Shown: piece after piece, positions 138-12,000 of the stretch | Layout of the letters: every line of letters begins with the position of its first letter | How positions within the stretch are numbered: position 1 is the first letter of the stretch | Translations under genes and position numbers: made by a program | IMG/VR virus record: IMGVR_UViG_3300049483_000063 | Span: 1 to 23,915 of that record | Origin: a virus | Length of the DNA: 23,915 nt | Strand: one strand, 5' to 3' | The notes under the pieces: model-generated | Databases searched by the model: none | Seen by the model: the letters and a program-made list of their open reading frames with translations, nothing else | What the model was told of the DNA's origin: nothing

Positions 138-530
138 CTACCTGGCTCCCGTCGTCGCCGCCACCCGTACGTCCGACAGCACCGCCGCGGTGCCCATCCG
201 GATCTTGCCGAGCGTCTGCTGCGCCAGCGCGTGCGCCTCCTCCGTGCTCACGCCGGGCAGCGCATCCGCGGCCAGCTTCAGGTAGTGCTGCGCCTTTTCT
301 GCCGCGGCGACCGACACGCCGGCCTTGAGGCGAGCCGAGGCCCACTCCTCGGTCTGCGCCACGAGTTGCGCGGTGAGATGCTCGAGCTTCGCGCGCTTCT
401 CGGCGTCAACGGTCAGCCCGAGTTTCTGGAGGGCCTTCAGCGCGAGGCCCACGATCAGCGTCGAGAGGATCGGCGCCACAATGGCGAAGACGACGGCGAC
501 GATTTGGGTGGTGAGATCAGTCGGTTCCAT
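138..530 (-). CDS. Holin, LLH type
   Basis: 130 residues. One transmembrane helix at about 8-33 (TQIVAVVFAIVAPILSTLIV) is followed by LQKLGLTVDAEKRAKLEHLT and a long amphipathic region ending GVSTEEAHALAQQTLGKIRM. This layout (N-terminal span, 'G[IL].VDA..R..LE', C-terminal helix with an acidic turn) matches the LLH superfamily of phage holins. It would let the endolysin encoded two genes upstream cross the membrane. ATG with GGGAGA about five bases upstream; 18 bases after the lipoprotein stop. The family call is by pattern. Confidence 0.75.
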   Translation of the reverse strand: MEPTDLTTQIVAVVFAIVAPILSTLIVGLALKALQKLGLTVDAEKRAKLEHLTAQLVAQTEEWASARLKAGVSVAAAEKAQHYLKLAADALPGVSTEEAHALAQQTLGKIRMGTAAVLSDVRVAATTGAR

Positions 531-548
531 GAGGTCTCCCGCGCACGC

Positions 549-2168
549 CTACCGGCGCGCGATCAGAATGGCCGCCTCGCGGCCGGTGAAGGTGACGGCC
601 TCGCCGGCGGCCGCCGTGAAGGTGCCGAGTGACGCGCCCGTGAGGGCGTCGTACCAGGTGCCCGTGATGGCCTGTCGTGCGGTCAGCCGGAGCGTGCCGG
701 TGATGGCGAGCGGCAGGCAGACAACCTCCGGCTCGCGCGTGGCGCAGTACATCCGCAGGACCGTCGTGCCGTCGCAGTCGAACGGCCGGCCCGGGAAGTT
801 GCTGTTACAGTTCTGGGTCTGCCAGGTCGGCAGGTCAGCCGGCAGGAGCGCGCGCGTGGCCACGATGCCCGCGAGCGTCGCGTCGAAGTGCTCGCTCTCC
901 CAGAGGTTCGCCGGCCGGTTGCGCGAGGGGTCGACCTTGCCGAAGATCCCCGCGCCGCTGTGATAGACGTAGCCCGCGCCACCCGCCAGCCAGGTCATCG
1001 CGGCATACATCGTGAGCCGGAGCGGATCCGCGTCCTGCTCGACGCTCGAGGTCGGGCCTTTGCCCTCGTTGTTCGTCCAAGCCGCCGGCGGCGGCGCGCA
1101 GAATTGCATCTCCCACGGCTGCCTGACGTAGCGCCACGGCCCGCCCTCGCCGCCGCTCCAGCGGTCGAGGTGCTTGGTCCTGACCGTGGCCCACTCTCCG
1201 TACTGCTCACCCGTGCCACACCCATCCATCCCGGTCGTGGCTGCCGTCGTGGCGACCGGAATGCTCGAGCTGGCCCGGATCCGCTCAGCCAGGCGGCGCA
1301 GCTCGTCAGGCCCGATCGCCGTGGCCGAGCCGTCTCCCCAGGCCTCGTTGCCGACTTCCCAGAGCTGGATCTTGTGCTCGCGGCCGCGGGACATCGCGAG
1401 GAACCGGTCGACGACGGCCGCGCGATCGGCCTCGGTTGGCACCGAGTCCACCCCACCGAGGATCGTCCACTGGACCCGGAGCCCGTGCGCGTAGGCCAGG
1501 TCCGTCACGCCGGCGATCGCCACGTCGAAGCCGGGGACTCGCGGGTCTGCCACCCGATCGAACCAGAGGCCCACTGGCCCGACGACCCCAAGGATGCGCA
1601 CGTAGTCGACGCCGCGCTTCGCCAGTTCGTCGAAGTGCCGCACCAGCCGCACCTGGTCGTGCTGCCAGCCCCAGACGCCCCAGAACAGCGTGGCTCCAGT
1701 CGCCAGCCACTCCCCGTCGGCGTCGGCGAACGCACGCCCCTGCAGCCGCACAGCGCCTCGGCGGGCCTGATACTGAGGCGGCTTCGGCGCCAGCGAGACG
1801 TTGACGAAGTTGACGCCGCAGAGCTTGACGCGCACGTCGCGCGCGGGCTCGTAGCCCTCGGCGCCGACCGACACGAGATACTCTCCCTCCGCCTCCACGA
1901 AGAGGCCGAGCGAGGTGACGTTGCCGGATCCATCCGCCAGGCCAACACGGCCGGCGACGGTCGCGAGTGCGCCTGGAATCTTGTGGTCGGCCTTGACCTC
2001 CGCCGGCGTCGCCAGCCCGGAAGAGGCTCCCTGGTAGACATGCACGGTCAGCCCGCACGTCACCGGCGGTGTGACAGGCGGGGTCACGACCGGAGGTTTG
2101 ACCGGGACGCAGCTCGTCAGCAGCAGCGCAACACCCAGGGCGACGACGGCAATCCACGTGCGTCTCAT
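549..2168 (-). CDS. Lipoprotein with glycoside hydrolase clan A-like domain
   Basis: 539 residues. Lipobox LLLTSC with Cys20, followed by a Pro/Thr/Val linker and no Asp at +2, so outer-membrane anchoring is likely. Residues about 38-128 are a small beta-sandwich resembling carboxypeptidase-regulatory domains, with C38 and C117. Residues about 140-470 look like a TIM-barrel glycosidase: LFWGVWGWQHDQVRLVRHFD, RVQWTILGG, and QLWEVGNEAWGDG, whose N274-E275 is the acid/base pair of clan GH-A. E368 in TNNEGKGP is a candidate nucleophile. LTMYAAMTWLAGGAGYVYHS and a C-terminal strand domain (GTWYDALTGASLGTFTAAAG) resemble DUF4038/collagenase-type C-termini. GGAGG stands about seven bases before the ATG. 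Substrate is unknown. Confidence 0.78.
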   Translation of the reverse strand: MRRTWIAVVALGVALLLTSCVPVKPPVVTPPVTPPVTCGLTVHVYQGASSGLATPAEVKADHKIPGALATVAGRVGLADGSGNVTSLGLFVEAEGEYLVSVGAEGYEPARDVRVKLCGVNFVNVSLAPKPPQYQARRGAVRLQGRAFADADGEWLATGATLFWGVWGWQHDQVRLVRHFDELAKRGVDYVRILGVVGPVGLWFDRVADPRVPGFDVAIAGVTDLAYAHGLRVQWTILGGVDSVPTEADRAAVVDRFLAMSRGREHKIQLWEVGNEAWGDGSATAIGPDELRRLAERIRASSSIPVATTAATTGMDGCGTGEQYGEWATVRTKHLDRWSGGEGGPWRYVRQPWEMQFCAPPPAAWTNNEGKGPTSSVEQDADPLRLTMYAAMTWLAGGAGYVYHSGAGIFGKVDPSRNRPANLWESEHFDATLAGIVATRALLPADLPTWQTQNCNSNFPGRPFDCDGTTVLRMYCATREPEVVCLPLAITGTLRLTARQAITGTWYDALTGASLGTFTAAAGEAVTFTGREAAILIARR

Positions 2169-2713
2169 GCGTGCACCTCCGCGGCCGGCGGTCGCTTGCC
2201 GGCGAGCGCCTCCGCCACCGTGACCTCGGTCGTTTCAACGTGGCAGGCATCCCAGCCGTACGGGTAGATCCGGGTGAACGGGGGGCCGGCGTTGATGACC
2301 CCGTCGAGCACGGCGCGCGGCTCGGGCGCCAGGCCCCACAGCACGCCGGTCCGGAGGCCCTCCTGCCGGGCGCACCAGGCGAGCATGAACACGTACCGGT
2401 TTGAGGGATGGAGGGGCGCGTCATCGTCCAACACGTCGGCCGCCAGCGCCTCCGTGCGGCCATCCTGTCCGATACAGGAATGGAACCCGCGCTTCACCTG
2501 ACTGTTCCCCGCCTTGTAGGCGGCCAGCTCATCCTCCGGACTGCGGTAGGCGTCCTGAATGCGCGGCCGGAAGCCGAACTGCTCCAGCCGCCCTAGCACG
2601 CGACGAAGCGGATCGCGGAAGGCCGGGAAACACTCACCAAGACGATTCGAGTTCCGAATCAGCCGTGCCTCTTCAGTCATCGTCTCGCTTTCGACGCGGG
2701 CGCCCCGGCCCAT
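2165..2713 (-). CDS. Endolysin-like M15-type peptidase
   Basis: 182 residues. Probably a metallopeptidase that cuts peptidoglycan cross-links during lysis. Motifs: FGFRPRIQDAYRSPEDELAA (the helix before the zinc site), GFHSCIGQ with H78, LAADVLDD with D93 and GWDACHVE with H158 and E160, giving the His-Asp-His set and general-base Glu of the VanY/M15 group; the first His to Asp gap is longer than in the textbook SxHxxGxAxD. No signal peptide, so a holin must release it. Start: ATG at 2713 has GGGGGAGG seven bases upstream; an ATG 11 codons later (2680) begins closer to the conserved part but has a weaker site. Its stop overlaps the lipoprotein gene (ATGA). Confidence 0.82.
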   Translation of the reverse strand: MGRGARVESETMTEEARLIRNSNRLGECFPAFRDPLRRVLGRLEQFGFRPRIQDAYRSPEDELAAYKAGNSQVKRGFHSCIGQDGRTEALAADVLDDDAPLHPSNRYVFMLAWCARQEGLRTGVLWGLAPEPRAVLDGVINAGPPFTRIYPYGWDACHVETTEVTVAEALAGKRPPAAEVHA

Positions 2714-2765
2714 CCCCCGGCCTCCCCCGAGTCCATCGGGCGACCAGGGCACCCGCCACGCCTGC

Positions 2766-2876
2766 CTACCGAGTGATCCGGCTCACCAGCCACGCGGCGA
2801 GCGCCCAGCCGAAGCCGGCGAAGAACCCGACTGCGGCCCATACGCCAATCTGATACAGACTGATCACTAATGGCAT
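2766..2876 (-). CDS. 36-residue membrane peptide
   Basis: Short gene reading MPLVISLYQIGVWAAVGFFA, then GFGWALAAWLVSRITR and a TAG stop. Almost the whole peptide (residues about 4-31) is one hydrophobic helix rich in Gly, Ala and Trp, ending in a positively charged SRITR. AGAGGAG stands six bases before the ATG, one of the best ribosome binding sites in the window, and the gene fits neatly between the membrane protein and the endolysin. A small holin, antiholin or lysis accessory peptide is possible from position; nothing in the sequence proves it. Confidence 0.65.
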   Translation of the reverse strand: MPLVISLYQIGVWAAVGFFAGFGWALAAWLVSRITR

Positions 2877-2889
2877 ACTCAGCTCCTCT

Positions 2890-3315
2890 CTACCTCGGCG
2901 GTCGAATCACGTCGCAGGCATCCCGCGCCACGCGCGCGGAATAGTCGCTCCCCTGCACGACGTTGCGGCACGTCTGCCGCTGCACCATCAGCATCAGCTC
3001 CTTGTACGCGCGGTCCTCCTGCGCGAAGGCGCCCATGGTGATGCTGGCGGACGCCTGCGCGGATCGCGTCGTTGAGACCGCGTCGAGGATCATCCGCTGG
3101 TTGTCAAGGATCATCCGCTGGTTGCCGGAGAACTGCGCGAGTAGGAACTGCAACATCACCCACGCGAACACGGTCCCCACGCCTCCAACCAGGATGAGCT
3201 GCACCCACCAGGGGCGTTGGCCCTGCGACGCGGCGGCCCGGCGATCGCTCAACTCGTCCTTGAGTTCGTCGAGGCTGACCCGCGTGGGTCCGATGTCCGT
3301 GTTGCTGTGGTCCAT
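2890..3315 (-). CDS. Single-span membrane protein with heptad duplication
   Basis: 141 residues. Residues 1-35 are hydrophilic and probably cytoplasmic (LDELKDELSDRRAAASQGQ). Residues 36-60 are one transmembrane helix (WWVQLILVGGVGTVFAWVML). The rest is a helical tail with the tandem NQRMILD-NQRMILD at 65-78, a further helix (FAQEDRAYKELMLMVQRQ) and two cysteines (C116, C134). AAGGA stands seven bases before the ATG. Topology (short N-terminus in, coiled tail out) is like an i-spanin or other lysis-associated membrane protein, but no o-spanin partner of usual size is seen, so the role remains open. Confidence 0.7.
   Translation of the reverse strand: MDHSNTDIGPTRVSLDELKDELSDRRAAASQGQRPWWVQLILVGGVGTVFAWVMLQFLLAQFSGNQRMILDNQRMILDAVSTTRSAQASASITMGAFAQEDRAYKELMLMVQRQTCRNVVQGSDYSARVARDACDVIRPPR
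3086..3124. repeat. 21-bp tandem duplication inside the membrane-protein gene
   Basis: The 18 bases AGGATCATCCGCTGGTTG at 3086-3103 recur at 3107-3124 without mismatch, a period of 21 bases (seven codons). It encodes the doubled NQRMILD heptapeptide. Confidence 0.95.
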
Positions 3316-3344
3316 GATGCGGTCCTTATAATGAGGATCGTGGT

Positions 3345-3707: not shown

Positions 3708-4305
3708 GGGACCAGCCTCAATGAACATCACGGGACAACGATACGGGAAGCTTCTCGTGCTGCGTAAAACGAACGATCGCAACGTGAGTAATAGCCCGAT
3801 CTGGCTTTGCCTCTGCGACTGCGGTTCGACCAAGCTTATTGGTCAGAACGTCTTGCGCCAAGGCGGTAGCCGGGGCATAAGTTGCGGTTGCAATCGAAGC
3901 GAAGCCAATCGAATCACCAGCTTCGTGCACGGCCACGGCGGCAGTAAGAACAGCGTTAGGAGCCCGGAATATTTGGCTTGGTCTGGGGCGAAGTACCGAT
4001 GCCACAACCCAAACTCTGGAAATTTTAGATACTACGGCGCGCGTGGAATTGAAATGTGCGAAGAATGGCGCGGTTCCTTCGCGTCCTTTTTGCGAGACAT
4101 GGGATTGCGGCCAAGCCCGCACCTTACCCTGGACCGAATCGACAACGACGGACCATACTCCCCAGAGAATTGCCGATGGGCAGACCGATCTACTCAAACG
4201 CGAAACCGAAGAAGAGGCGCATGGGCGCACCTCGCAACAACCCCGCACTGCCCAAAATGCCACTGTTTCTTGCCCGCCTCCGGTAGCTGTAGTCGCTGCG
4301 AGTAA
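3706..4305 (+). CDS. HNH/homing-endonuclease-like protein on the opposite strand
   Basis: 199 residues from ATG 3706, or 194 from ATG 3721. It is the only plus-strand gene. Order of motifs: [14 protein letters not shown]; a Cys cluster (LCLCDCG and, later, ISCGCNR); [33 protein letters not shown]; then [20 protein letters not shown] with TQTRNRR, the conserved end of a family of phage-borne HNH/AP2-like mobile endonucleases. A further zinc-knuckle-like tail ([17 protein letters not shown]) is added. G+C is low for the window (62 of 120 bases over 3961-4080 against 79 of 120 over 17041-17160), pointing to transfer. AAAGGAG lies 11 bases before the first ATG; the family usually begins near the second. 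Probably a selfish gene. Confidence 0.85.
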
Positions 4306-4371: not shown

Positions 4372-6758
4372 TGGCGTTTCTCCTGCAGTGCGGCGATCTG
4401 CGCTTCAAGGGCTTGGATACGAGCGAGTAGAGAGACAGGCGTCAGCTCTGGACTGAGGCAGCCGACGGAGGTGACGATCCCATACTCTGTCGTGATGGTG
4501 TCGACCCCGGCTCCACACGACGCAGCGTTCACCCCGTCGGTGCGATACCACAACTGCCCAGACGTCTGCACGACGGGATACCCGCTCGTCGCCGTCGGCA
4601 GACCGGAGGCATAGATTCTGTCGGCCACATAGAAGGCAGCCCACGGGTCGGTGGCCGTCCCAAGGTTGCGGTCGTCGGCGCTGTAGAACCCGCCCGATCC
4701 CAACACCACGCCGTAGCTTCCCGCTTCGAGCGTCAGGCTGCCGGAGTTTCCATGTATGTAGAGCGACCCGCCGTTTGAGTACAGGTAGGTGCCGTCACTC
4801 CACCGAACTTGGTTACTTGTTCCTGTTCCGGCCGTGAACAGAATGCCACTACTGTCGAGGGTGACGTTGCCGCCCCCGAACGTCGCCGACACGCCGCTGA
4901 TGCTGCCTGCGGTGATCGTGCCAAGGTCTGCGGCAATCGCCGACAGCGTGGACGTGGAGATCCGATCGGCCGTGATGCTCGCCGCCCGGATATGCCCCGG
5001 CCCGATCTGCCGCTGCATTTCGACGTTGTCGACATACACGTCGGAGTAGGTGCCCGTCGTGCGCGTCCAGTTGTAGACCGACAGCGTCACCCACTGCACG
5101 CCCGAGGGCACGGTGTAGGTGTAGGACAGGGCGTTCCATCCGGCCGCAAGCGCGCCATCCGACAGCAGGTCGGTGAAGCTACTGCGCGTCGTGCCGCCGA
5201 ACGTCCCGCTGCCGGCCGTCACCCGCGTGACGTAGGCCGACGACGATGACTCCTGCATCCGCACGTAGATCCCGGTCGTCGTGCCGCTCGCGTGATAGAG
5301 ATCCAGCGCGACGCGGTAGGTCTGCCCGGCCTGCACGGGCACCGCCGTGTAGCCCACCCCGATCGTGAGTGTGGACGGCGGAGACAGCACGTAGAGGCCG
5401 GGCCCGTTCGTGCCGCCGCTCGCGAATCCATACCCCGCGCTGGCACTCGCCGTGCCCTCCACTTGCGCCCACCCCACGGCTTGCACGGCCGTCGTGCCGC
5501 CCTCGAACAAGCCGTTTTTCACGACGTTGTCACCGAAGCCCGTGGCGTTGATCGCGCCGACGTTGATCGTGCCCGTCGTGATGTTCCCGCCGTTGATCGC
5601 GGTCAGGCCCGCGCCGTCGCCGACGAACGTCAGCGTCCCGGCCGACCCGTCCCACTTCATCGACGCGCCGGCCATGTTCCCGACGCAGAAGTCGTACGAC
5701 GCATCGGCCGCCTTGCCCATCCACACGCCCGTCCCGCTCGCGCACGACGTCGGCAGCGTGGCCCCGAGCGCAAACGAGGGCACCGCGGGCGCGAGCCGGA
5801 TCGTGTTCGACGTCCCGTCGAACAGCTTCAGGTCGATCCCGTGCAACTCGAACGCCTGGTCAGACGCACGGAAGTAGTGCCCATTCGTGGCCGCGTACGT
5901 CCCAGCAATTAGGCCGTACTCCGTCGTGGCCGTGATGCCCCGCAGATTCCCGAGCCGCGTGCGGACGGTGCGGTTCGCGGCGACCGGCGCCGTGGCCCAC
6001 GTCACGACCTGCGAGTACGGGCTGTTGATGGCATAGGCGCCGTCTACCGCGCTGATCTCGTGATAGCCGTTGCCACTCACCCCGTAGTCGAGCGCGAGGC
6101 TGTCAATCTGGACGTCCGTCGCCGGCGTCATCGTGCCGCCCGTGCCGCCACTCGTCCCGCGCGTGAACGTCCATCGCTGCTCGCCCGATCCGTCGAGATA
6201 GCCCGACACCGTCCCGACGCAGTCGCCAATCGTGAGCGTCCCCGCGGCCCGCGAGAACGACCGGAGGACCACCCAGTCGCCAGACTCGAAGGTCTGCATG
6301 TCGGAGGCGCTCGGCAGATCCCGCACAAACAGATACGCCGCGGCCTCGTAGGCTGGGCACGCAAAGACGTGCGACACGACGGCCACCGACTTGGTGATGA
6401 TCTGCCCGCCCGCGAGCGCCTGTTCGAGGTCGGCGATGAACGCCTTGACGTGCATCTCGTCCGCAAAGAGGTAGCGGAAGTCGGCCCCGCCCGCGTTGTC
6501 GATCCGCCAGCCCGTCGTCTGCGACACGTAGGACGGCAGCCCGATGTAGCCGGAGACGCCCGTGTTGCCCGTCGTGCCGTCCGTGGTGAATCCGCCGCTC
6601 GTGACGGTCAGGCCCCCGGTGAGGGTGATAATCGTCCCATCGGCCGTGACGACCGCCGATCCCATCACGATCTTGCTGGCGTAGAGACTCTGGGCCTGCG
6701 CCACGCCGGCGAGCGACGCGACAAGGAGAAGTGCAGTCAGCCAGGTGATGCGCCTCAT
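4368..6758 (-). CDS. Fibre-like tail protein with signal peptide and carbohydrate-binding-like domain
   Basis: 796 residues. Residues 1-22 are a textbook Sec signal peptide (RRITWLTALLLVASLAGVAQ, AxA-type cleavage), odd for a virion part. Residues 24-130 hold fibre-like beta repeats and a helix (YLFADEMHVKAFIADLEQAL). Residues about 412-582 resemble a CBM_4_9 jelly roll (VVKNGLFEGG, QAGQTYRVALDLY, VQWVTLSVYNW, DVYVDNVEMQ). Residues 590-622 (IRAASITADRIS, LGTITAGSISG) are the kind of repeat seen after tip-attachment domains. The C-terminus has a peptidase-free tip (ADDRNLGTATDPWAAFYVAD) and a short coiled coil (LLARIQALEAQIAALQE). ATG overlaps the hub stop. It likely binds host glycans; the target is unknown. 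Confidence 0.78.
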   Translation of the reverse strand: MRRITWLTALLLVASLAGVAQAQSLYASKIVMGSAVVTADGTIITLTGGLTVTSGGFTTDGTTGNTGVSGYIGLPSYVSQTTGWRIDNAGGADFRYLFADEMHVKAFIADLEQALAGGQIITKSVAVVSHVFACPAYEAAAYLFVRDLPSASDMQTFESGDWVVLRSFSRAAGTLTIGDCVGTVSGYLDGSGEQRWTFTRGTSGGTGGTMTPATDVQIDSLALDYGVSGNGYHEISAVDGAYAINSPYSQVVTWATAPVAANRTVRTRLGNLRGITATTEYGLIAGTYAATNGHYFRASDQAFELHGIDLKLFDGTSNTIRLAPAVPSFALGATLPTSCASGTGVWMGKAADASYDFCVGNMAGASMKWDGSAGTLTFVGDGAGLTAINGGNITTGTINVGAINATGFGDNVVKNGLFEGGTTAVQAVGWAQVEGTASASAGYGFASGGTNGPGLYVLSPPSTLTIGVGYTAVPVQAGQTYRVALDLYHASGTTTGIYVRMQESSSSAYVTRVTAGSGTFGGTTRSSFTDLLSDGALAAGWNALSYTYTVPSGVQWVTLSVYNWTRTTGTYSDVYVDNVEMQRQIGPGHIRAASITADRISTSTLSAIAADLGTITAGSISGVSATFGGGNVTLDSSGILFTAGTGTSNQVRWSDGTYLYSNGGSLYIHGNSGSLTLEAGSYGVVLGSGGFYSADDRNLGTATDPWAAFYVADRIYASGLPTATSGYPVVQTSGQLWYRTDGVNAASCGAGVDTITTEYGIVTSVGCLSPELTPVSLLARIQALEAQIAALQEKRQ

Positions 6759-9061
6759 TCGAGGATCCCTCCTGCGGCGAAGACGTCCTCGGCCGCCACG
6801 CCGGGGAGCAGCTCGAGGCGATACGTCTTGCGGCCCCCCGCAAGGGTCACGCCGAAGACGACGGTCTGCCAGGTCGTCGACGTGACCAGCGCGCTCTCGC
6901 CCACACAGGCCGCGCTGTCAGACACGTTGTAGAGCCGGGCCTTAACCGACACGGCAGCCGACGCGGCCCGGAGTCGAACCGTCACCGTCGCGGCGAGCGT
7001 CCCGCGGGCCGTCGCGTCGACAGAGACCTCGATCGCACAGGCCGCCACCCAGGTGGGCGTCGCGCTCTGCACCGCCTCGAAGCCCGTGCCGCCCAGGTAG
7101 TAGGCGGTGCGCACGATGACGGCCATGCCCGAGGCCGCTCCTGAGGAGCTTGACGAGCCAGACCACCCCCTGACCGTGTCGCGCTCATCGCCATGGAAGA
7201 CGGTGCCTTCTTCGGTCTTCACCGTGCGAAGGCTCCGCGATCCTCGGTCCTCTGTCTCCACCTCAGTGATGAGGAACGTGTTGTTCAGATTCCGCCAGGC
7301 GGCCTGGATGGTCTGCGTCTGGCCAGGGTGCAGGCCCTTCTCGTACGTGCTGTAGCCGACGTGCTTCTGGCTGGCGTTGTGCGTCACCAAGAGCGCGTCA
7401 CAGAGCGCCTGGCCGCCGGCGATGTCCGTGATGTCCTCGTTGGCGGTCGTGTAGACATAGGGATCGGTCGCATATTCGGCCGTCTCCGCGAACACCGGGA
7501 ACGGGAACGACCCCTGATAGTCGATCGTCACATGCGCGGCGCTGGCGATGGATCCGAACGAGGTCGTGTGGAGTAGACACGCGCGGCCGTTGCTGCCAGT
7601 GGTCGCCCCCGCCGCGTCCCACTGCCACTCCGACCCGTCGCCGAGCACGCCGACCCCAATCCAGATGTCGCCACCTGATCCCGTCGCGTCGTACTTGACA
7701 TAGTCAGGGATCGGAGACGCCGGCGACGGATAGTCGCAGTAGAACACCTGATACGCGCCGACGGTGACCGCGTCGCTGCCGTACCAGAAGCGCGATCGCG
7801 GAATCGGATCCCCCTTGCCGCACAAGAGCACGACCCGATTGGCGTAGTCCTGATCGGTCGGCTCCACCGTGATGTCGCCCTCGACGTGGCCGTCGCCGTC
7901 GGCGATGTTGAAGGGCGCGGCCACGGTGCCAGGGGCGAATCCTCGGAGCACTTTGTAGTAGTCGATCTCGATCGTGTAGCCCGAGAGCTGTGACAGGCCC
8001 CCGTCGCCCCAGAGGCATTCGGACGCTTGCTTCCATCGCCATTCGATCGCCGGCAGGGTCGGGCCGTTGGCCTGGGCCGGATCCAGCGTAACGCCGAGCG
8101 GCGCGAGCTGTGCCGCGACGGCCTGCAAGGCGGCTTTCAAGTTGCCGACCGCGAGCACGGCGTTGATCGGCAGCCGGTCGGCCAGCCCATTGAAGTCGAC
8201 GGCGTCGACGGTCGTCGTGATCGGCTGGAGGCCCACACCACCGAAGCCACTCTCCCGCGGCGTCTCAATCGTCCCGCCAAAGGTCCGCGTACCGTCTTCG
8301 GTCGCGATGACCTGCGTGCGCTTCGCCGGCCGCACTGATCCATCCTGTGAGGTCACGTCGACTACCAGCCGGCTCCGGCCGTTGATCAGCTCGGTGATGT
8401 GCAGCGTGCCGTCGTCGTATTTCGTGCTGGCGAGGGCGAGTGCGTAGTGTGCGGCCACGGTCGCCGCCGACAGCGCGGTCGGGTAGATCGCGACCTCGTC
8501 GAGGGAGCCGGGGAAGTAATACGCGCCGCCGAAGTGCCGCCCAATATTCCAGGTCGTCCCGGTCATCGATCCGGTTGCGGCCGTCGGTCCTCCCCGCAAT
8601 ACACCATCGACGTACACGCGCATGTCCGCGCCGTCGTAGGTCGCCACGACGTGATGCCACGCTCCATCGTTGGACGCCGTCGCGCTCGTACAACTCACCC
8701 CGGTCATCCACAAATTGACCCGACCACCGCTGCAGAAAAACTGCGGCGGACCGGCCTCAGTGATGGTCACAAAGTCGGTCGACGTGAACTTCGCCCAGAC
8801 TTCAATCGAGAACAGCGTGTTCAACGCCGCGATAGTGGCCGTGATGTAGCCCGACGCAAACAACGCGGCCGTGTCCCCATCATCGACCGCCCCCGCCTGT
8901 CCGAACGTCACCCCGCCCGCGACCGTCCCGGTGCGACCCAGCCCCGAACTGTCGGCCGCCGTCCCCGATCCCACGGCGTCCCCGAGCCGCCAGTACCCCA
9001 CCGCGCCGTCTGCCAGCACGCGATCCCGATACGGGTGACCGATGTGGAGGACAATCGCCAT
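6755..9061 (-). CDS. LamG-domain tail tip / baseplate hub-like protein
   Basis: 768 residues. Residues about 12-215 form a concanavalin/laminin-G-like domain: DRVLADGAVGYWRLGDAVGS (the usual 'YWRL.D' opening), FSIEVWAKFTSTD, DGAWHHVVATYDGADMRVYV and FPGSLDEVAIYPTALSAATV. Residues about 220-620 look like a tail hub or tip protein (LPINAVLAVGNLKAALQAVA; EGDITVEPTDQDYANRVVLL; HPGQTQTIQAAWRNLNNTFL). A Ser/Gly linker near 640 precedes a C-terminal beta domain. It follows the tape measure gene, where distal tail and tip proteins sit. ATG with AGGA five bases upstream; its stop overlaps the fibre gene. The LamG part probably binds host glycans. Confidence 0.8.
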   Translation of the reverse strand: MAIVLHIGHPYRDRVLADGAVGYWRLGDAVGSGTAADSSGLGRTGTVAGGVTFGQAGAVDDGDTAALFASGYITATIAALNTLFSIEVWAKFTSTDFVTITEAGPPQFFCSGGRVNLWMTGVSCTSATASNDGAWHHVVATYDGADMRVYVDGVLRGGPTAATGSMTGTTWNIGRHFGGAYYFPGSLDEVAIYPTALSAATVAAHYALALASTKYDDGTLHITELINGRSRLVVDVTSQDGSVRPAKRTQVIATEDGTRTFGGTIETPRESGFGGVGLQPITTTVDAVDFNGLADRLPINAVLAVGNLKAALQAVAAQLAPLGVTLDPAQANGPTLPAIEWRWKQASECLWGDGGLSQLSGYTIEIDYYKVLRGFAPGTVAAPFNIADGDGHVEGDITVEPTDQDYANRVVLLCGKGDPIPRSRFWYGSDAVTVGAYQVFYCDYPSPASPIPDYVKYDATGSGGDIWIGVGVLGDGSEWQWDAAGATTGSNGRACLLHTTSFGSIASAAHVTIDYQGSFPFPVFAETAEYATDPYVYTTANEDITDIAGGQALCDALLVTHNASQKHVGYSTYEKGLHPGQTQTIQAAWRNLNNTFLITEVETEDRGSRSLRTVKTEEGTVFHGDERDTVRGWSGSSSSSGAASGMAVIVRTAYYLGGTGFEAVQSATPTWVAACAIEVSVDATARGTLAATVTVRLRAASAAVSVKARLYNVSDSAACVGESALVTSTTWQTVVFGVTLAGGRKTYRLELLPGVAAEDVFAAGGILE

Positions 9062-9068
9062 CGTCGTC

Positions 9069-12000
9069 CTACCCGACAAACCGCTTCGCCGACCGGACCA
9101 CCGCGTTCATGACGGCGCGGTCATTCCGGACGACCCATTCCTGGAGCACGCGACCCTCGACGACGAGCTGGGCGTGGATCTCGTTCTGGACAATCACCGG
9201 CGCCGCGCCGCCGCCCTGGAGCATCCCGACGGCGCCGGCGGCCTCCGCACTCATCGGCCGGTTGAACGGGATGATCGCTTCGAGGCCGTGGAGCCGAACC
9301 GTGGTCCCGAGACCGAAGTCACGGAACCCGCCCGAGGCAAAGCTGAGCCCGCCGTCTCGCCCCGGTCCAGGGCCCGGCCCGGGTCGCCCGGCGTCAACGG
9401 GCCCTCCCGGCGCCGTTCCCCAGTCCTCCCAGGGCGCCTTGACGCGCAGGTCGACCTGGTCCCAGGCGTCCTGTGTCTCCTTGGCGCCCCGCCTCCCCTC
9501 CCGGGGAATGTCAGTCCCGAGCCTCCCGATCAACTCGCCGAGTTTCGTGATGAGGAGGTCGAACTTCGTCGTCAGATCCTCGGAGAACTTCAGCTTGGTC
9601 AGGTCGGTGAGCTTCGTCCCGTTGTCGTCGGTGAGGGTGCCCTGCTTGATCATCGCTTCGATGATCGGCTTGAGCCCCGCCGGGAGTTCCATCCCGTACT
9701 TGAGCGCGTTCCGGACGAGGTCCTGCACTTTCCCGCCCATCCCGACCGCCAAGTTGTCGCCCTTCGAGAACGCCTCCAGGATCGGCTTGAGTCCCGCCGG
9801 GAGCGTGCCGCCGTTCTTGAGCGCCTCTGTGCTCAGGTCGATGAGCTTCTGCTTCATCTCTTCCGTGAGCGGCACGCCCGCCGCGAGCGAGTCAAGGATG
9901 GGCTTCATGCCGGCGGGCAGCGCGGATCCGAACCCGAGCGCCGCGGTGACGCTGTCTTTGAGCGTGCCGGTGATTCCCCCGATCAAGGCCTCGATCGGCG
10001 CCCCGGCTTGCGTCAGCAGCTTCCAGTCCTTGATCGCCTGGTCGGCGGCGTCGGTCAGCTTGAGTTGTTGGACCTTGGGGCCGAGCTGGTCCAGCGAGAG
10101 GCCGTAGCGATCCGCGGCCTCTTTGATGTCTGCCAGCGACGGCATCGTGTCGGCCGCCAGGCCGAGCATCGCGCGCGCGGCAGCGTCGGTCAGCTTACCC
10201 GCCCGGATCATCGTTTCGAGCAGGGGCTGCAGCGCCGGCGGGATCTTCTGTCCCGTCTTGACGGCGTCGAGAATAAGCTGGTTCAGGCTCCCGCTCATCC
10301 CCCCCACGGCGGTGTCGAACGGGACGCCCGCTTGCCGGAGCCGGCCCATGTCGTCCAGGAGCCCGTTGACGATGTCGGTGAACCTGATCGCGCGGATGTT
10401 CTCGCCGAGGTCGGTCCAGGACAGGCCGTACTTATCGAGCGTCTCATCGAGCAGCTTCGTCCGCGCGGTGAGGTCGTCGAGCACGCCCTGCAGCGCCGCC
10501 GCATCGTCCCAGGTGAACGCTTCGCGGATGTTGATGCCGACGGCGTCCGCCTCGATCGCCAGGTTGTGCATCCCCCCGTAGAGCTTCAGCATGCCCTCGC
10601 GCAGTGTGACGAGGGCCGCGGTATTCGCCCGGACGCGCTTCTCGTACTCCGTCGGTCCCCCCGCGCCGAACAGGCCCGCGATCGCCTTGCCGGCCTGCAG
10701 CGCGGCGCCAGCGACCCCGAGATAGCCGGCGACCATGCTGATCGTGCCGCCGACGCCCCCCTGGGCCTTCCCCTCGCCGATGGCCTTGACGCTCTTGGCG
10801 GCCGCATCCGCCGCCGACACGACCGTCGCGAGCCCCTGCACGATGCCGCCGAACGTGCCGCCGGCAATCTGCGAGAGCTGCGAGAGCGACTGCGCGACGT
10901 CGCTGAGGCTCTCGTTCCAGTCCTTCGTGGGCGGGATCACGTTTTGTCTGAGCACTGGACTCCACTTCCGCGCCTCCGTGGTCCAGTCCTTCGACAGGGG
11001 GATCGTGACCTTCTCCAGCTCCGCGGCCAGTTTGATTGCGTCCGCCGCTGCGTCTTCCATCCAGGCCAGATCGGACACGCGGTCCTTCGCGCTCATGGCC
11101 TTCAGCGCCGCCTGCGCGGCCACCGTGATGTTGCCGTAGCCGAGCCGGACCTTCTGCTGCATCGCCTCGAACGCGGACGCGGCGGACGCGGTCGCGTCCA
11201 GTTCCGCCTTTGTCGGGGCGAGTGAGCCGCCGCCTGGCCGGGTCCCCTGCGGCGTCTTCGACGCTGGCGCCATCGATCGGTCAATCGCCGCGCCCAGGGA
11301 ATTCACGAAGTCCTTCTGCCACTGCGCCGCCTTCTTGGCTTCGTCGGCCCAGGTCTTGAACACCGCCGCCTCGCCGAATTTTCCAGCGGCCGACGCGACC
11401 GACGAGAGCGTCTCGAAGATGGCGGCCTTCCATTCGTAGAGGCGCTCCGCCGATTGCGCCATCCCGTAGTCGAGATAGACGAACAGGTTGCCGAGGTGCT
11501 TGAAGAACCCCCCGACGGGCTCTGACACCTGCAGCAAGCTATCGAAGGCGGGCCGGAGATTCGACAGGATGTTCGCGCTCAGGGCGCGCCCCTGCAGGCG
11601 CACGGTATCCAGCGTGTCACCCATCGCGTCGAGGTTGGCGATGGTCGTCTCGCTCAACACGAGGCCGAGACGTTCCGCCTGGGCCATCAGCGACCCAAGT
11701 TCGTCCGTGACCCCACGAAGGTCTTTCCAGGACTTCGAGAAGATCTGCGCGCCGGCGGCGGCCTGCTCCGCCGGGTCCTTGATCCCGTGGATCTTCTCGA
11801 TGAGTAGGGCCATCTGCTGCTCAGGACCGAGCTGACGGAACGCGGCCCACGACCCGACGAGCTTCTCGATCGCTGGGCGGTTCTCCGCCATGCCCTTCTG
11901 CATCTGGAAGATGCCGGTGGTCATGGTCTCGAGGCTCACGCCCATCATCTGCCCGGCGTAGTCGAGTTTCTGGAGGGCGTCCGTCTCGAGCTGTGTGGCG

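Follow-up and report, generated by a model that had tools for sequence, protein, structure and literature searches.

Mycobacteriophages carry in their lysis module the enzyme LysB, which is encoded beside the endolysin and acts on an envelope layer beyond the peptidoglycan (PMC6116114). The o-spanins of the Rz1 and P2 LysC type are lysis-cassette lipoproteins with a proline-rich N-terminus (PMC3556154, PMC6139136). Their periplasmic domain is small and holds no enzyme. A recognised spanin is missing from about 13% of surveyed phages, and the means by which these breach the outer envelope is an open question (PMC6139136). Phage T5 encodes an outer-membrane lipoprotein of another kind, Llp (PMC9586334). 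Llp blocks a protein receptor and is no enzyme.

Here we describe a predicted lipoprotein glycosidase encoded between a putative endolysin gene and a holin-like gene on a 23,915-base IMG/VR virus contig (the window, which was analysed at its full length). Like LysB, this protein is encoded by an extra enzyme gene inside an endolysin-holin cassette, and an action beyond the peptidoglycan is proposed for it. However, LysB is an alpha/beta-hydrolase esterase (GxSxG) of mycolata phages that has no lipid anchor, whereas the window protein has a predicted barrel fold and a lipobox, making it at most an analogue in role and not in chemistry. With the o-spanins it shares its place in a lysis cassette, its lipoprotein nature and its proline-rich N-terminus, but the mature protein would comprise ~520 residues with an enzyme-type barrel, and a search of its surroundings yielded no confirmed i-spanin partner. 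Llp is likewise a phage-coded outer-membrane lipoprotein, although its function and its operon context differ. Searches of the open-licence literature gave no account of lysis cassettes that encode a lipoprotein glycosidase, and the words lipoproteins and glycoside hydrolases are absent from a 2025 survey of viral lytic proteins. The arrangement is apparently undescribed so far.

Organization of the lysis cassette

Terminase, portal, capsid, tape-measure and tail genes are all present on the minus strand of the window and rule out a chromosomal origin. The initial annotation of this DNA had placed a lipoprotein glycosidase gene between endolysin and holin genes and had coupled it to the former by an ATGA overlap. 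Both statements are borne out: the stop of the endolysin gene overlaps the ATG start of the glycosidase gene at 2168-2165, and the three genes follow each other in the order given (Table 1), with the endolysin recognised by motif and the holin by its transmembrane (TM) segment and by a homologue in a related prophage, G019.

The putative endolysin carries AYRS, FHS...ALAADV and WDACHVE motifs, which we take to be typical of M15 peptidases of the CwlK/T5 type. The call is motif-based, with no significant HMM or PDB match, and searches for this protein in the relatives returned only E values of 1e-3 to 0.05. On the other side, the holin-like gene starts 18 bp past the glycosidase stop, behind a GGGAG stretch that resembles a ribosome-binding site. 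Its product has no significant match in Pfam or PHROGs; topology and synteny suggest a holin, the G019 homologue being located at the lysis end of that prophage. Two further genes for small membrane proteins precede the endolysin gene, and the product of the more distant one is a possible accessory holin or i-spanin-like protein.

Table 1. Features of the lysis cassette and of related loci. Coordinates refer to the window unless another contig is named; domain limits and functions are predictions.
Feature	Coordinates	Strand	Evidence
Predicted lipoprotein glycosidase gene, 539 aa	549..2168	-	ORF; homologues with 25-41% identity in phages and Acidobacteriota; fold model
Predicted type II signal peptide and lipobox, residues 1-20 (LLLTS-C20)	2109..2168	-	Sequence; lipobox scan
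Proline-rich linker PVKPPVVTPPVTPP, straight after the presumed lipid-bearing Cys	2064..2108	-	Sequence; similar stretches in phage lipoprotein homologues
Predicted N-terminal beta/Ig-like domain, residues ~37-128 (low model confidence)	1785..2060	-	Model strands 40-116
Predicted clan GH-A type (beta/alpha)8 barrel, residues ~141-410	939..1748	-	AlphaFold2, Foldseek
N274-E275, predicted acid/base pair after beta-4	1344..1349	-	Conservation; strand beta-4 = 267-272
E368, predicted nucleophile after beta-7	1065..1067	-	Conservation; strand beta-7 = 364-366
Predicted C-terminal beta-sandwich, residues ~450-539	552..821	-	Eight predicted strands, pLDDT mostly 79-92
Putative M15-type peptidase endolysin, ATGA-coupled to the glycosidase gene	2165..2680 (ATG) or to 2752 (GTG)	-	Motifs
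Holin-like protein, 130 aa, N-terminal TM, LLH-like layout	138..530	-	TM segment 4-35; homologue in prophage G019, E 9e-24
Small single-TM ORF MPLVISLYQIGVWAAVGFFAGFGWALAAWLVSRITR upstream of endolysin	2764..2877	-	Translation
One-TM protein with helical C-terminus	2890..3330	-	TM segment; no family match
LamG (concanavalin-like) domain near tail-protein N-terminus	6755-9079	-	PF13385, 8e-23
Putative GH-A-like lipoprotein and beta-propeller-like protein of G019	L123 885-2207 and 2204-3997	-	Endolysin-holin interval, isolate prophage

Tail genes with LamG and carbohydrate-binding-module-like domains had earlier been read as pointing to a glycan-coated host. The LamG domain is real, but the 'CBM' of the other tail gene (E 0.09) falls below the cut-off. 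LamG domains are common among tail proteins, which makes the case for a glycan-coated host weak. IMG/VR relatives found through this domain have essentially nothing else in common with the window, bar one weak tape-measure match in contig L023. On the opposite strand to the late operon, an ORF at 3721-4305 (+), between a tail gene and the 3345-3719 gene, resembles phage homing endonucleases of the HNH/AP2 type.

A lipoprotein with a predicted glycosidase fold

From N- to C-terminus the protein is laid out as a lipobox (LTSC20), a proline-rich linker, an Ig-like domain, a barrel and a beta-sandwich, the last three as predicted by modelling. Its signal peptide, MRRTWIAVVALGVALLLTS followed by Cys20, has Lys/Arg in the n-region and a hydrophobic h-region, and the L-T-S-C sequence fits the pattern [LVI][ASTVI][GAS]C near residue 20. 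The lipobox assigned initially to Cys20 is the sole pass in a scan of all six frames of the whole window (ORFs of >=45 aa), where 0.007 are expected by chance per composition-shuffled window; the scan is imperfect and misses the lipoproteins of G019 and of contig L165. Since the residue at position +2 is Val and not Asp, sorting to the outer membrane is expected, and the phage lipoprotein homologues have no Asp at this position either. We infer from these features that the protein is lipidated and sorted to the outer membrane.

No significant sequence match to the protein was found in Pfam, PHROG, NCBIfam or PDB. Glycosidase families were absent at E < 1 from Pfam searches with the window protein and 10 aligned relatives, and glycosidase family models matched neither the window protein (NCBIfam) nor three chromosomal relatives. 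The family may be equal to a CAZy family that is without a model in the Pfam and NCBIfam libraries. Two homologues match CarboxypepD_reg (best E 4.8e-6), which compares with the N-terminal Ig-like domain.

An AlphaFold2 model based on an 11-sequence alignment (mean pLDDT 73.7, with 75-94 over most of the barrel) predicts a complete (beta/alpha)8 barrel in which N274-E275 follow beta-4, H333 follows beta-6 and E368 follows beta-7, with lower confidence in the loops that bear the catalytic residues (blocks of 47-75). A single-sequence AlphaFold model was discarded (pLDDT 42). Foldseek returned 414 PDB matches at E <= 0.001, the best of which belong to clan GH-A and include the GH5 mannanase ManDH5 (8e-15), GH30 xylanases, a GH140 apiosidase (TMt 0.65) and PslG (1e-8), all at ~10-14% identity. 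A near full-length structural match is given by the unannotated phage protein A0A6J5R1U1 in BFVD (538 aa, E 3e-38, 29% identity). The window protein thus resembles clan GH-A enzymes (GH5, GH30, GH39/PslG, GH140) in its barrel, in the Asn-Glu pair after beta-4 and in the Glu after beta-7, but differs from them in being a phage lipoprotein encoded with lysis genes and in matching no Pfam or NCBIfam glycosidase model.

The pair N274-E275 and the candidate nucleophile E368, which had been named from the sequence of the ORF, do not vary across the 16 aligned relatives, and the same is true of H333 and R336. R191 and W202 are kept in every one of the 15 alignment rows that cover those positions. Although no Pfam or NCBIfam family model recognises it, the predicted product of this gene is by the other in-silico criteria a glycosidase, presumably with a retaining mechanism. 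Phages do reuse folds for binding, and the GH-A barrel might have been kept as a glycan-binding adhesin or as a structural lipoprotein. We consider this very improbable, because the acid/base and nucleophile Glu residues, the Asn that precedes the former, and the active-site-type residues R191 and H333 do not vary.

Distribution of the family

Searches with the single protein sequence found no homologue in Pfam, PHROGs, NCBIfam, PDB, INPHARED (tblastn) or the viral and genome scans. Homologues were instead reached through related phages, located by capsid and terminase, and through alignments grown from the pair formed by the window and the related record G006. The terminase and capsid of G006 are 76% and 65% identical to those of the window phage, and its glycosidase homologue is 38% identical. 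A homologue is present in one of 34 scanned records related to the window phage, many of these records being fragments that lack the lysis end. Further phage contigs with homologues are L151, L152-L158, L160, L165 and L167-L172, and one Acidobacteria MAG contig carries a homologue as well. Of 396 Acidobacteriota genomes, five matched at E <= 1e-5, and two of those matches are weak. Relatives are present on four Acidobacteriota chromosomes, showing that the fold serves bacteria too. A search for the host by way of the capsid gave 28-33% matches in six of the same 396 genomes and is not decisive.

The family is mostly phage-borne. Concern that the homologues might be host genes only, joined to the phage genes here by misassembly, is met by two observations: most relatives lie on phage contigs, and the position in the lysis cassette recurs in independent contigs. 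The overlapping start and stop codons and the like gene order in those contigs rule out misassembly of the window junctions.

Association with lysis genes in diverged phages

A search for the endolysin-lipoprotein-holin order elsewhere revealed that adjacency to lysis genes recurs in several diverged phages. In each of the seven lipobox-form phage members (window, G006, L151, L160, L152, L158 and L165) a lipobox-like N-terminus leads into a proline-rich stretch, and in L165 the lipobox is atypical (LNSC). In six of these (all save L152) the glycosidase gene adjoins endolysin genes, holin genes or both. The order is M15_3 peptidase (1.8e-19), short GH-A-like ORF, lipoprotein glycosidase and holin-like TM protein in G006, and endolysin (PHROG 315, 1.4e-9), lipoprotein glycosidase and Phage_holin_10 (3e-9) in L151. 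In L160 a putative transglycosylase-like endolysin, called by motif (phrog_3108, unknown function), lies directly upstream. A TM protein gene of one type overlaps the glycosidase gene by 4 nt in both L158 and L165, and is followed in L158 by the glycosidase gene and a GH108 endolysin (1e-17), and in L165 by the glycosidase gene, a weak LLH-holin-like gene and an M15_3 endolysin (5e-15). Partner endolysins are therefore of at least three kinds, with the partner-gene calls in L160 and G006 made partly by motif or topology.

The contigs, or parts of them, that were used to bound the effect of chance hold 10 to 51 non-overlapping ORFs each, so that random placement within two genes of an endolysin would have a probability of well under half in each case. 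By this rough bound, six of seven near lysis genes is not expected by chance, on an assumption of independent contigs that is only partly true. L158, L165 and L152 are close kin inside one clade. The recurrent element beside lysis genes is the lipoprotein form of the family.

Three of these contigs show further features. The short ORF that follows the M15 endolysin in record G006 (L093 719-1492, +), ahead of the lipoprotein glycosidase, is a second, unanchored GH-A-like sequence with AELRNEPD and VTEIGYH motifs; it could not be aligned with the family (hhalign E 0.33) and has no match in Pfam or PHROG. In L151 the Phage_holin_10 ORF at 9369-10094 (+) does not end with the holin: another hydrophobic segment follows, with a lipobox-like SFAAC, and may belong to an additional lipoprotein gene that starts inside the ORF. 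An ORF at 7790-8815 (+) of L165 encodes a putative membrane-anchored protein with a hydrophobic N-terminus, a proline-rich linker and a possible TIM barrel, and has no family match.

Prophage G019 of an isolate genome (IMG 2710724059), and the near-identical G005, carry a different lipoprotein in the corresponding interval. The order there is a GH108/PG-binding endolysin, a beta-propeller-like gene, the lipoprotein, a 64-aa ORF and the holin that is homologous to the holin-like protein of the window. This lipoprotein has a lipobox (MVGAC) and EIGNEP and VADEPP motifs, and appears GH-A-like by motif. Its alignment to the family is marginal (hhalign E 5e-4, probability 31), with the NE and DE positions falling on N274-E275 and E368. 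A second, very divergent lipoprotein of apparent GH-A type in this interval is the strongest hint that the position reflects a lysis function and not chance cargo. Another beta-propeller-like gene is found at L098 113-1789.

Proposed role in opening the cell envelope

The initial annotation had offered three roles for the protein, namely opening a capsule as the cell bursts, removing receptor glycans and blocking superinfection. Among these, gene position favours lysis. Our preferred explanation, which we rate at about even chances, is that an outer-membrane glycosidase removes a glycan barrier at lysis and thus acts as a 'third-layer' enzyme. The late lysis module would encode a clan GH-A type glycoside hydrolase that leaves the cytoplasm through Sec, receives its lipid at Cys20 and ends up in the outer membrane. 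Around the time of lysis it would hydrolyse a glycan of the host envelope, either a surface polysaccharide or exopolysaccharide or a periplasmic or outer-membrane glycan. Holin and endolysin would act first, and glycan hydrolysis would then open the cell fully and release the progeny. Late co-expression, glycan hydrolysis and a role in release are the parts of this scheme that we infer. The placement of the gene is confirmed, the core reading as a lipoprotein glycosidase is supported, and what was seen on one contig now extends to a recurrent arrangement, for which a function in lysis is proposed.

Superinfection exclusion or receptor trimming would have the anchored enzyme clear the infected cell, or debris, of receptor glycans, so that neither related phages nor newly released progeny attach, with the late operon providing timing only. 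Llp of T5 is a precedent for a phage-encoded outer-membrane lipoprotein of this kind (PMC9586334), an enzyme anchored at the surface would suit receptor trimming, and the lipobox is kept in the lysis-linked members. However, exclusion of the Llp type needs early expression, whereas the glycosidase gene is at the end of a late module. Nor does exclusion predict that the gene should turn up repeatedly beside endolysin and holin genes from different families, and exclusion-gene neighbours were not seen. We regard this explanation as unlikely, if worth keeping in mind.

The TM proteins near the glycosidase gene bear on another explanation, in which the proline-rich outer-membrane lipoprotein is an o-spanin-like partner of a nearby TM protein and its glycosidase domain passes or loosens the glycan layer. 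Candidates of i-spanin type (TM segment and helix) are found directly upstream of the glycosidase gene in L158 and L165, and two genes upstream of the endolysin gene in the window. The 4-nt overlaps in L158 and L165 recall overlapping spanin gene pairs (PMC3556154). No second lipoprotein was detected by the scan of the window, and only one, distant and on the other strand, near the glycosidase in the scanned cassettes; lipoproteins are rare in phage genomes, and some of the surveyed phages lack a recognised spanin (PMC6139136). Weak lipoprotein- and proline-type matches to Rz-like spanins also occur, but they are below or near noise and due to the signal peptide and Pro/Glu repeats: matches of the N-terminus to Pfam LysC and PHROG spanins (E 0.03-0.26) were rejected as signal-peptide and proline effects, and a phrog_812 match in one relative (7.5e-6) was taken as Pro/Glu repeat similarity. 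Moreover, an Ig-like domain, a barrel and a beta-sandwich come after the linker where a spanin would have an alpha-helical domain, the lipobox scan overlooks some lipoproteins, as in G019 and L165, and true spanins may sit beyond the contig end, 137 bp past the holin-like gene. We hold a spanin substitute to be quite unlikely.

The arrangement points to phages that may breach a sugar or outer-membrane barrier enzymatically on their way out of the cell. Found repeatedly in endolysin-holin modules, such a lipid-anchored glycosidase would be a testable candidate for envelope breach, at least with heavily glycan-coated hosts. The family has no HMM in Pfam or NCBIfam, and its substrate would bring to light an envelope glycan of little-cultivated hosts. 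A broader form of the hypothesis is more doubtful, although we entertain it tentatively: phages of several lineages would finish lysis with an outer-membrane-anchored glycosidase as a third, hitherto unrecognised lysis function, possibly replacing the spanin, and the same interval would have been filled convergently by different GH-A-type lipoproteins.

Members outside lysis cassettes

The family is broader than lysis, and the link to lysis genes does not hold everywhere. In the lipobox-bearing L152/153/155 lineage the gene is located beside tail-region genes and not lysis genes. On marine T4-like contigs (L168, L169, L170 and L171) the gene lies in replication or structural modules and its product has no signal peptide. 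The Acidobacteriota chromosomal members sit among housekeeping genes, and one of them, in G057, is a lipoprotein.

Such members bear on the view that the gene is cargo of metabolic or ecological use. It would then encode a secreted polysaccharidase, acquired from a host, that breaks down matrix or plant polymers to supply nutrients or aid dispersal, and would occupy a permissive position where the late operon ends. Phage and Acidobacteriota rows interleave in a tree of the 16-row alignment, the chromosomal G057 protein is itself a lipoprotein, and glycosidases are often reported in soil phage contigs in the literature. But the deep divergence of the homologues, combined with fixed catalytic residues and a fixed position in several lineages, points to a function long kept by phages, and in G019 the same interval is filled by a different lipoprotein with GH-A-like motifs. 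We judge cargo to be rather unlikely, and prefer the envelope-opening role at lysis for the lipoprotein form; labelling such genes carbon-cycling 'auxiliary metabolic genes' from fold alone calls for caution.

In two of the marine contigs, L168 (3751-5184, +) and L171 (3897-5339, +), the glycosidase is fused to an N-terminal stretch that resembles a bulb-type lectin, and its gene lies beside DNA polymerase and helicase genes.
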